From positions 227,759 through 270,113 of the forward strand of contig NZ_JALBVB010000053.1 in the NCBI RefSeq assembly GCF_022669155.1: a stretch of 42,355 nucleotides of DNA. Direction: 5' to 3'. Source of the stretch: Kineococcus sp. TRM81007 (GTDB lineage Bacteria; Actinomycetota; Actinomycetes; Actinomycetales; Kineococcaceae). Below, piece after piece: positions 37,742-42,355 of this stretch (position 1 is its first letter; the number at the start of each line of letters is the position of its first letter). The translations under genes and the position numbers were made by a program. Below the pieces are notes generated by a model. That model had not been told where the DNA came from and ran no database searches. It saw only the letters and a program-made list of their open reading frames with translations.

Positions 37742-39267
37742 GCACCACCGACGTGGAGCTCGTCGACTACGACGAGGCCGTCGCGGAGTTCGACCCGGTG
37801 CTGGGCCTGGAGGTCCACGTCGAGCTGTCGACCGTGACGAAGATGTTCTCCGCGGCGCCCACCGAGTTCGGTGCCGCGCCGAACACCCAGGTGGACCCGA
37901 CGTCCCTGGGCCTGCCCGGGGCGCTGCCGGTGCTGAACGCCAAGGCGCTGGAGTCCGCGGTCCGCATCGGCCTGGCGCTGAACTGCACGATCGCGTCGTA
38001 CTGCCGCTTCGCCCGGAAGAACTACTTCTACCCGGACATGCCGAAGAACTTCCAGACCTCCCAGTACGACGAGCCGATCGCGTACGACGGGTGGCTGGAC
38101 GTCGACGTCCCCGCCAGCGAGGACGGCTCCAAGCCGGCGTTCACGTACCGGGTGCTCATCGAGCGCGCGCACATGGAGGAGGACACCGGCAAGTCCCTGC
38201 ACGTGGGCGGCTCCACCGGGCGCATCCACGGCGCGGAGTACTCCCTGGTGGACTACAACCGCGCGGGCATCCCGCTCATCGAGATCGTCACCCGCCCGCT
38301 CGAGGGCACCGGTGACCGCGCTCCCGACGTGGCCCGCGCCTACGTGGCGGCGCTGCGCGACGTGCTGCGTTCCCTGGACGTCTCGGACGTGAAGATGGAG
38401 CAGGGCTCGCTGCGCTGCGACGTGAACCTCTCGCTGCGCCCCACGCCCGACTCCCCGCTGGGCACCCGCTCGGAGACGAAGAACGTCAACTCGCTGCGCT
38501 CGGTCGAGCGGGCCGTGCGCTACGAGGTCAGCCGGCACGCCGCCGTCCTGCGCGCCGGGGAGCGGGTGGTGCAGGAGACCCGCCACTGGCACGAGGACAC
38601 CGGGCTGACCACCTCCGGGCGGGAGAAGTCCGACGCGGAGGACTACCGCTACTTCCCCGAGCCGGACCTGGTGCCGATCACGCCCGACCCGGCGTGGGTG
38701 GAGGAGCTGCGCGCCGCGCTGCCCGAGCCCCCGGCGCAGCGCCGCAAGCGGCTGCAGGCCGAGTGGGGCTTCTCCGACCTGGAGATGCGCGACACCGCCA
38801 ACGCCGGCGCGGTCGACCTCGTGGAGGCGACCGTCGCCGCCGGGGCCTCCCCGGCCGGCGCCCGCAAGTGGTGGACCGGTGAGCTCTCCCGCCGCGCGAA
38901 CGCCGAGGGCGTGGAGCTGTCCGCGCTGCGGGTGGGCCCGGCCGACGTGGCCGAGCTGCAGGCGCTCGTGGAGGCCGGCACCCTCACCGACCGCCTGGCC
39001 CGCGAGGCCCTCGACGGCATGCTCGCCGGGGAGGGCTCGGCGGCCGAGGTCGTCGAGTCCCGCGGCCTGGCCGTCGTCTCCGACGAGTCCGCGCTGGTGG
39101 CGGCCGTGGACGCGGCGATCGCCGCGAACCCCGGCGTGGTGGAGAAGATCCGCGGCGGCAAGGCGCAGGCCGCCGGCGCCCTCATCGGCGCCGTCATGAA
39201 GGAGATGCGCGGCAAGGCCGACGCCGCGCGCGTGCGCGAGCTCGTCGTGGAGCGCGTGGGCGGCTGA
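37738..39267 (+). CDS. gatB: Aspartyl/glutamyl-tRNA amidotransferase subunit B
   Basis: The 509-residue subunit that binds the misacylated tRNA, activates the side-chain carboxylate with ATP and transfers ammonia. The catalytic cradle is recognisable from [41 protein letters not shown], the RPTP region following [10 protein letters not shown], and [10 protein letters not shown]. The C-terminal tail domain binds the tRNA body ([21 protein letters not shown]). The ATG overlaps the gatA stop (ATGA). A strong terminator begins 5 bases after the stop. Confidence 0.97.
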
Positions 39268-39272
39268 CCCCC

Positions 39273-39320
39273 GCACCGGCACGGGGCCCGGGCCGTCGCG
39301 CCCCGGCCCCGTGCCGGTGC
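39273..39320 (+). terminator. Strong hairpin terminator after gatB
   Basis: A 16-base-pair perfect stem (39273-39288 with 39305-39320) and a 16-base loop, beginning 5 bases after the gatB stop. There is no T tract, as is usual at this GC content. It separates gatCAB from the pfl genes, leaving only 46 bases for any pfl promoter. Confidence 0.8.
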
Positions 39321-39366
39321 CCACCCCCGCGGTCGCGGCACGGACGCTGCGGAGGACTGCGACGGG

Positions 39367-40365
39367 GTGGAGCCCCCGGCTCCCCTGGTGCTGGTGCCCG
39401 GCCACACCGCCACCGACCGCACCCGCGCCGTGTGGGCGAAGCTCACCGCGATGTTCCCGGCCGAGCGCGCCGAGGGCGTGCACGACGTCGACGTGGACAC
39501 CCCCTCGACCATCACCAGCCACGCCCCCGGGTACGTGGACCCCGAGCTGGACCTCATCGTCGGCCTGCAGACCGACGCCCCGCTGCGTCGGGCGATCATG
39601 CCCAACGGCGGGCTGAAGACGGTGCAGGACGGCCTGGCCGCCTACGGCTACGAGCTCCCCGAGCGCGTCGCGGAGATCTTCACCACGTACCGCAAGACCC
39701 ACAACCAGGGCGTGTTCGACGCCTACACCCCGGCCATCCGCGCCGCCCGCCGCTCGCACGTCATCACCGGCCTGCCGGACGCCTACGGCCGCGGCCGCAC
39801 CATCGGCGACTACCGCCGCCCGGCCCTGTACGGCACCGCGCGCCTCATCGAGGGCAAGAAGGCCGAGCGCGCCCTGCTCGACGCCCGCCGCAGCACCGCC
39901 GAGGTCGTGCAGCTGCGCGAGGAGAACTCGGAGCAGGTGCGAGCCCTGGGTGAGCTGGAGCGGATGGCCGCCTCCTACGGGTACGACGTCAGCGGCCCCG
40001 CCCGCACCGGCCGCGAGGCGATCCAGTGGCTGTACTTCGCCTACCTGGCCGCGGTGAAGGAGCAGAACGGCGCGGCGATGTCCCTGGGCCGCACCGCCAC
40101 GTTCGTCGACGTGTTCCTCCAGCGCGACATCGCCGAGGGCCGGTTGACCGAGCAGGACGCGCAGGAGCTCGTGGACGACTTCGTCGTCAAGCTGCGCATC
40201 GTGCGGTTCCTGCGGACCCCCGCGTACGACGAGCTGTTCTCCGGCGACCCCACCTGGGTCACGGAGTCCATCGGCGGTCTCGGCGAGGACGGCCGCCCGC
40301 TGGTGACCCGCACGTCGTTCCGCTACCTGCAGACCCTCTGCAACCTCGGCCCGGCGCCCGGGTGA
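39367..40365 (+). pseudogene. pflB: Pyruvate formate-lyase PflB, N-terminal fragment (broken gene)
   Basis: PflB splits pyruvate with CoA into acetyl-CoA and formate by a glycyl-radical mechanism. This 332-residue open frame carries the first half, with strong family sequence: [71 protein letters not shown] and [16 protein letters not shown]. The first ~35-40 family residues (the W..F..G.W / VRDFI / NYTPY region) are absent. The frame ends abruptly after NLGPAPG, just before the segment that should contain the catalytic Cys-Cys pair. GTG 39367 has a GGAGGA 10 bases upstream. The product cannot be an active lyase. Confidence 0.85.
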
Positions 40366-41183
40366 ACCTCGCCAAGACGCTGCTGTACGCGATCAACGGC
40401 GGGCGCGACGAGGTCAGCGGCGTGCAGGTGGCCCCGGCCGCGGAGCCGGTCACCGGCGACGTGCTGGACTGCGACGACGTCGTGGCCGAGCTGGAGCCGA
40501 TGATCGCCTGGCTGGCCGAGACGTACGTCAGCGCCCTGAACGTCATCCACCACATGCGCGACGAGTACGCCTACGAGCGGATCGAGATGGCGCTGCACGA
40601 CCTGGTCGTCGACCGCACCCTGGCGTGCGGCATCGCCGGCCTCTCCGTCGCGGTGGACTCCCTGTCGGCGATCAAGCACGCCACGGTGCGCCCGGTGCGC
40701 GACGAGACCGGCCTCGTCGTCGACTACGTGGTCGAGGGCGTGTACCCCGCCTACGGCAAGAACACCGGCAACACCCCCGACGGCCGCCGCGCCGGTGCCC
40801 CGTTCGCCCCGGGCGCCAACCCCATGAACGGCCGCGGCCGGCACGGCATGGTCGCCGCGGCGCTGTCGGTGGCGAAGATCCCCTACGAGGACGCCCTGGA
40901 CGGCACCTCCCTGACCACGTCGGTCACCCCCGACGGCCTGGGGCGCACCGCGCAGGAGCGGGTGGGCAACCTCGTCGGCGTCCTCGACGGGTACGTGGCC
41001 TCCGGCGGGTTCCACGTGAACGTCGACGTCCTGGACCGCGCCACGCTGCTGGACGCCATGGAGCACCCCGAGCAGTACGGCCAGCTGACGATCCGGGTGT
41101 CCGGGTACGCCGTCAACTTCGTCCGCCTGACCCGCGAGCAGCAGCTGGACGTCATCAACCGCACCTTCCACGGCTCCCTGTGA
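40362..41183 (+). pseudogene. pflB: Pyruvate formate-lyase PflB, C-terminal glycyl-radical fragment
   Basis: This 273-residue frame, shifted relative to the first fragment, resumes family sequence at [13 protein letters not shown]. It continues through [32 protein letters not shown] and [12 protein letters not shown] to the radical motif RVSGYAVNF (Gly248). About 65-70 residues between NLGPAP and NLAK, including the IACCVS active-site pair, are missing. A second block of ~45 residues between VYPAYG and GKNTGN is also gone, in frame. A GTG overlaps the upstream stop as GTGA, so re-initiation could in principle produce it as a separate glycyl-radical polypeptide; more probably it is decaying. 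Confidence 0.83.
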
Positions 41184-41190
41184 GGTTCGA

Positions 41191-42027
41191 GTGACCAGCA
41201 CACCGGTCGACCCGGGGCTCCCGCCCGCGGTGCGCCCGGAGCGCACCGTGGTCCAGCCCCTGCCGGGCGGCACCCTCGACGGCGTCGACATCGACGCCGT
41301 CGAGGGCAGGCTGCACTCGTGGGAGCTCGTCACCGCCCTGGACGGTCCCGGGACCCGCCTGGTGACGTGGGTGACGGGGTGCTCCCTGCGCTGCCGGCAC
41401 TGCCACAACCCCGACACCCGGGACGTGCGCAACGGCACCCCCACCACGGTGGGTGAGCACGCCGGCCGCCTGGTGCGCTACCGCTCGTTCCTGCGTGCCT
41501 CCGGCCGCGGGGTGACGATCTCGGGCGGGGAACCGCTGGTGCAGCCGGCGTTCACGGCGGCGTTCCTGCGCCGGGCCAAGGAGCTGGACCTGCACACGGC
41601 GCTGGACACCTCCGGCTGCCTGGGTGCGCGGGCGAGCGACGAGCTGCTCGACGACGTCGACCTCGTGCTCCTGGACGTCAAGAGCTCGGACCCGGCGACC
41701 TACCGGCGCGTCACCGCCCGCCCGCTGGCGCCGACGCTGCGCTTCGCCGAGCGCCTGGCCGGGCGCGGCGACCGGATGTGGATCCGGTTCGTGCTGGTGC
41801 CGGGGCTGACCGACGCGCAGGACGACGTCGACGGCGTGGCGCGCATCGCGGCGTCCCTGGGGCCGGCGGTCGAGCGCGTGGAGGTCCTGCCGCACCACAG
41901 CACGGGCCGGTCCAAGTACGAGCGGCTGGGACTGCCGTACCCCTTGCCGGACACCCCCGCGCCGACGGTGGAGCAGACCGAGCGGGCCCGCGACGCCTTC
42001 CGGGACCGGGGCCTGACGGTCCTCTGA
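41191..42027 (+). CDS. pflA: Pyruvate formate-lyase activating enzyme (radical SAM)
   Basis: PflA uses a 4Fe-4S cluster and S-adenosylmethionine to put the radical on the PflB glycine. The 278-residue protein has the cluster motif at Cys64, Cys68 and Cys71 (GCSLRCRHCHNPDT), the SAM-binding glycine motif TISGGEPLVQ, LDVKSSDPATYRRVT, and the C-terminal VLPHHSTGRSKYERLGL. The N-terminus is ~40 residues longer than the E. coli enzyme. The GTG lies 7 bases after the pflB remnant's stop with a weak GAGG. It appears complete, although its normal substrate next door is broken. Confidence 0.92.
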   Translation: MTSTPVDPGLPPAVRPERTVVQPLPGGTLDGVDIDAVEGRLHSWELVTALDGPGTRLVTWVTGCSLRCRHCHNPDTRDVRNGTPTTVGEHAGRLVRYRSFLRASGRGVTISGGEPLVQPAFTAAFLRRAKELDLHTALDTSGCLGARASDELLDDVDLVLLDVKSSDPATYRRVTARPLAPTLRFAERLAGRGDRMWIRFVLVPGLTDAQDDVDGVARIAASLGPAVERVEVLPHHSTGRSKYERLGLPYPLPDTPAPTVEQTERARDAFRDRGLTVL

Positions 42028-42057
42028 GCGCGCCGCGGCCGCACCCGGGCACGGCTT

Positions 42058-42075
42058 CGTCAGCGTCCTCTCAGC
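42058..42075 (+). promoter_or_regulatory. Direct repeat resembling a PhoP-type box
   Basis: CGTCAGC (42058-42064) and TCTCAGC (42069-42075) separated by 4 bases, giving an 11-base period. The geometry, and the second half in particular, resembles the direct repeat of actinobacterial PhoP boxes (TCACAGC, 4-base gap, TCACAGC). It lies 55 bases before the acyltransferase start. It is short and may be chance. Confidence 0.2.
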
Positions 42076-42129
42076 GACGCCGTGGCACCCTCCCTCCCGC
42101 AACGAGCCGCGGGGTGGGAGGGGGCCGGC

Positions 42130-42355
42130 GTGACGGTCGTGGACGGCAGCAGGGACGTGCGGGCGCGGGGGAGCGCCGAGCCCGCGGGCGGCGGGTTCCG
42201 CCCGGACGTGGAGGGGCTGCGCGCGGTGGCCCTGGGGGTGGTCCTGCTCTTCCAGGCGGGCGTGCCGTTCTTCGGCTCCGGCCTGGTCGGCGTCGACGTG
42301 TTCTTCGTCGTCTCCGGTTTCCTCATCACCGGGCTGCTGGTGCGCGAGGCCGAGC
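42130..42355 (+). CDS. Acyltransferase family 3 membrane protein (5' end only)
   Basis: The first 75 codons of an integral membrane O-acyltransferase of the OafA/YrhL type, which acetylates surface sugars or lipids. After a ~25-residue Arg/Gly-rich cytoplasmic start comes FRPDVEGLRAVAL, the family's opening signature with the R-x-x-x-x-R/H-type region, then GVDVFFVVSGFLITGLL, the second hallmark. A purine-rich GGGAGG lies about 8 bases before the GTG. The gene runs off the window, so its length and any C-terminal SGNH domain cannot be judged. Confidence 0.85.
   Translation, partial: MTVVDGSRDVRARGSAEPAGGGFRPDVEGLRAVALGVVLLFQAGVPFFGSGLVGVDVFFVVSGFLITGLLVREAE

Follow-up and report, generated by a model that had tools for sequence, protein, structure and literature searches.

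The 42,355-nucleotide stretch of the Kineococcus sp. TRM81007 genome analyzed here (the window) probably, at about three chances in four, carries an acquired pflBA unit in which at least three deletions, two at 8-9 base repeats, have turned pflB into a pseudogene and left pflA as an orphan. As read from the sequence, a pflB-pflA unit of actinobacterial type would have been gained in this lineage, presumably by transfer, between gatB and an acyltransferase gene, after which pflB would have become a pseudogene. Its 199- and 138-base deletions, both at 8-9 base direct repeats, would have arisen through slippage during replication or a comparable short-repeat deletion that does not need Ku, the 199-base event removing the Cys-Cys segment and shifting the frame, and pflA would have stayed full length as an orphan activase.

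The locus combines interpretable deletion junctions with an apparent orphan activase, and the corresponding site in the closest congener is empty. It is potentially a readable case of how a glycyl-radical enzyme of fermentation is lost; the named relative of this lineage, Kineococcus radiotolerans, is described as aerobic (PMC2587704). Automatic annotation could misread the fragments, or pflA, as evidence of pyruvate-to-formate fermentation. No title among the literature matches listed names this pfl locus.

Two pflB fragments and a full-length pflA

The pflB frame that opens at a GTG at 39367 (+ strand) ends at a TGA at 40363-40365, and pyruvate formate-lyase (PFL) sequence resumes immediately in a different frame. 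The 5' fragment (39367-40365, + strand, 332 amino acids, with PFL homology starting at 39412) matches positions 36-352 of TIGR01255. The 3' fragment (40362-41183, + strand, 273 amino acids) opens with a GTG sharing bases with the upstream TGA (GTGA at 40362-40365) and comprises a later PFL-like part (PF02901 positions 447-603, 125 bits) and the entire Gly_radical domain (PF01228, 114 bits). Aligned with the Escherichia coli PFL (1h16), the two fragments together cover its chain residues 46-367, 437-572 and 611-758. The stop at 40363, the NLGPAPG end and the resumption in another frame, on which the original prediction was built, are all present in the window bases.

A functional PFL would have a single open frame scoring above 994 bits against TIGR01255, the adjacent catalytic cysteines C418/C419, a radical glycine in RVSGYA and an adjoining activase gene. 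The window holds two fragments of 447 and 358 bits instead of one frame, and the segment with the cysteines is absent from pflB. The radical glycine codon (41103-41105, + strand, within RVSGYAV) is kept in the 3' fragment according to both alignment and domain match. The adjoining pflA (41191-42027, + strand) encodes a full-length pyruvate formate-lyase activase, with CSLRCRHC present and a TIGR02493 score of 267 bits against a cut-off of 231.75; no gap longer than 10 residues appears where it was aligned locally with 33 of 35 relatives. The gene product had been proposed to be a lyase that keeps its radical glycine but not its active site. The kept glycine codon and the lost Cys-Cys segment agree with this, but the further losses and the stop that splits the frame do not fit a lyase lacking its active site alone. 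Relative to intact homologs, pflB has three disabling lesions, as a pseudogene would.

Three lesions in pflB

Intact genes for comparison came from 50 of the 67 loci read, each with a PFL frame containing both ACCVS and RVSGYAV, the 17 minus-strand loci being left out; the alignment across all three lesions comprises window pflB and 13 of these 50 relatives. At lesion 2 (junction CGGCGCCCG, 40352-40360, + strand), 199 bases are gone, the frame is shifted and the catalytic Cys-Cys pair is lost. The distance between two motifs gives this same size in 45/45 measurable intact relatives, the motif search having been unsuccessful in five rows of the 50. The loss of the Cys-Cys segment is supported: the missing block includes ACCVS, although ACCVS was also a selection criterion for the intact rows. 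The block corresponds to chain residues 368-436 of 1h16, a gap that takes in C418/C419 provided that the 1h16 chain is numbered as in PMC12338860.

Over 8-9 bases, the sequence retained at lesion 2 can be read both as G-P-A-P-(E) of the upstream flank and as (F)-G-A-R of the downstream flank, in agreement with the earlier proposal of a deletion at a short direct repeat. Judged from the conserved residues, a TTC codon for the lost Phe would make the overlap in CGGCGCCCG 9 bases long, and any other codon 8. Relatives had been expected to carry the repeat twice, about 200 bases apart. An exact 9-base repeat occurs at both places in 2 of the 50 (L048 and L100), but the repeat is shorter in the other 48, so that by the original prediction's own criterion most relatives speak against it. 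The shorter runs are read here as synonymous codon choice, in which case the repeat would be peculiar to the parent gene, and not as a refutation.

Lesion 3 (junction CTACGGCAA, 40751-40759, + strand) is an in-frame deletion of 138 bases, likewise at an 8-9 base repeat, and the 46 residues that it removes directly precede the glycine domain. Its size is 138 bases in 44 of 45 measurable relatives (L025 was not scored), and 31/50 intact pflB genes have a repeat of at least 8 bases at both places. At lesion 1 (39367-39411, + strand), about 37 conserved N-terminal residues (AW.GF ... FLAGP before T.RT) are missing and a non-homologous 15-codon leader is present. When three frames of 39151-39440 are searched with a 41-position profile built from the 35 of 50 relatives fitting the search pattern, only its terminal TDRT is matched. 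The leader lacks conservation, which leaves no repeat definable for this lesion. Given lesions 1 and 3, one slip is insufficient for pflB, and the single exchange originally put forward fails as a whole account: about 37 N-terminal and 46 further residues (138 bases) were also lost.

Across 32,566 places in intact genes, matching runs at offsets of 199 or 138 reach at least 8 bases in 0.35% and at least 9 bases in 0.09%. Chance runs are thus rare, and both junctions lie at short direct repeats beyond chance expectation. Ku-dependent end joining was set aside as their source because no Ku domain was matched in the genome, which makes slippage or another Ku-independent route likely.

Some features speak against decay. 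Two of the three lesions keep the frame, and outside the three pflB shows neither small indels nor point nonsense mutations. The GC content at third codon positions (GC3) of the fragments is 0.987 and 0.996. With GC3 still high and any other stop or shift absent, the death of pflB, if real, must have been recent. Window pflB departs at 10 of 240 columns that are invariant in the 48 other non-redundant rows, the highest count of any row; one of these is the junction itself, and the median of the other rows is 0. The full-length pflB of Streptomyces actuosus VRA1 (L051), which lies on a long branch and perhaps has a shifted function, reaches 9/249 departures at otherwise invariant columns; such departures are therefore a weak sign of relaxed selection on pflB. 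Although unbroken, pflA has the most departures at invariant columns in its own set (4/58).

Locus setting and distribution

The pflB and pflA genes are flanked by gatB and, on the right, by an acyltransferase gene carrying an Acyl_transf_3 domain. A hairpin after gatB (39272-39320, + strand, -52.2 kcal/mol, z -4.3), likely a terminator, lies close to the left boundary of the pfl insertion; Rfam and tRNA scans of the window found nothing. Both genes are absent from 10/10 other genomes of the genus searched. In the closest congener by GatB (95%; G004) the site is empty: the sequence following gatB runs straight into a stretch alignable to window positions 42060-42147, to the right of pflA, with an alignment score of 46 (200 shuffles gave a maximum of 41 and a mean of 27.9). 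Opposite window positions 39268-42060, the remaining congeners show several different sequences after gatB, and this may be a variable site.

Within the order, the 5' fragment is matched in 180 of 396 sampled genomes. In the tree, window pflB has a long branch and is placed next to rows from Streptosporangiaceae, Thermomonosporaceae and Streptomyces (support 97/76, not starred). The simplest and most likely reading of these sequence comparisons is a gain of pflBA in this lineage, its loss in the other congeners being possible.

A second glycyl-radical enzyme as the target of PflA was rejected, as this locus is the sole match to Gly_radical (PF01228) in the genome and NrdD is matched in 0/11 genomes of the genus. 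With no other glycyl-radical domain found for it to serve and no NrdD match, pflA appears to be an orphan activase.

Gene decay or assembly artifact

The strongest rival to decay, unlikely but with some weight, is that pflB is intact in the cell and that assembly or amplification bridged thinly covered regions through overlaps of 8-9 bases. Three deletions of about 110-200 bases, two with repeat junctions, in a gene with no small mutations and a GC3 of 0.99 would suit such an artifact, as would the draft state of the genome (60 contigs). The contig holding the window (C52; 320,000 of its 320,414 bases) was compared, as an assembly control, with a 400-kb syntenic stretch of genome G008. The comparison covers 131 of the 256 predicted G008 genes, those with a partner of at least 60% identity, the remaining 125 having no such partner. 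Internal gaps of at least 15 residues occur in 0/131 partnered genes of C52 (55,522 aligned residues). That a single gene bears three large lesions and the 131 bear none argues for gene decay, and the assembly collapse that the original prediction had itself mentioned is made unlikely. Poor coverage of an extreme sequence finds little encouragement in base composition either, since the segment of the relatives that matches lesion 2 has a GC content of 66.9% against 68.4% for the gene. Moreover, the excess of changes at invariant columns, weak as that signal is, would not be produced by an assembler.

The same control listed two frame splits in C52 relative to G008. One was rejected, since what had been listed as its second half is an upstream reading that contains an internal stop. 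The other probably reflects a small frameshift outside the window, near C52 138105-138127 (L171), with a net change of -13 bases relative to G008; the product, which may be SRAP-like, reads CGRYALRRDVDEL before the shift and SNVAPTSSPPVV after it. Either an error at the base level or another broken gene may lie behind this shift. It casts some doubt on the assembly, slightly raising the artifact reading and slightly lowering that of decay. The reverse scan, of G008 against C52, gave five events (three gaps of 15-16 residues and two splits).

Possible use of the fragments

A far less probable alternative to pseudogenization, to which we give little credence, is that the cell expresses and uses the pflB fragments: translation from the GTG would turn the 3' fragment into a protein that works like GrcA and receives its glycyl radical from PflA. 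The activase is full length, the glycine loop is retained, the GTGA stop-start overlap offers a start, and the 3' fragment matches three GrcA families. The structured half of GrcA (residues 61-127) shares its fold with the end of PFL (PMC8683613), and PflB lacking both cysteines (C418A/C419A) is inactive yet still accepts the radical in E. coli (PMC12338860). However, the scores fall under all three family cut-offs (121/158, 108/145 and 79/170 bits), lesion 3 takes 46 residues right before the glycine domain, and the genome yielded no intact PFL that a spare part could mend. In PMC12338860, PflB C418A/C419A was unable to replace GrcA. Since an inactive, cysteine-less PflB could not stand in for GrcA and the scores are below the cut-offs, an expressed, useful fragment is possible but unlikely. 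Least credible of all is the idea that stop-start coupling yields a 3' fragment acting as a catalytically empty radical acceptor for PflA in a bacterium without a lyase.

Comparison with known systems

Window pflB resembles PflB (TIGR01255; E. coli 1H16) in its 5' fragment, which is 77% identical to the Microbispora protein over 316 aligned residues, and in keeping the glycine-radical end. It differs in being split by a stop and in what it has lost: the active-site Cys pair, a block of 46 residues and about 37 residues at the N-terminus. Like GrcA/YfiD, the 3' fragment ends in the glycine-radical region of PFL; unlike it, the fragment is 273 amino acids long and includes part of the PFL barrel, scores under the family cut-offs and had no partner PFL identified in the genome.

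Bacterial pseudogenes formed by short-repeat deletions are a known general kind. Window pflB differs from them in showing no small indels or nonsense mutations beyond its three lesions, but it is like them in that its 138- and 199-base deletions fall at 8-9 base repeats and that the gene is absent from the congeners searched. Window pflB looks like an ordinary pseudogene that arose by an ordinary mechanism.
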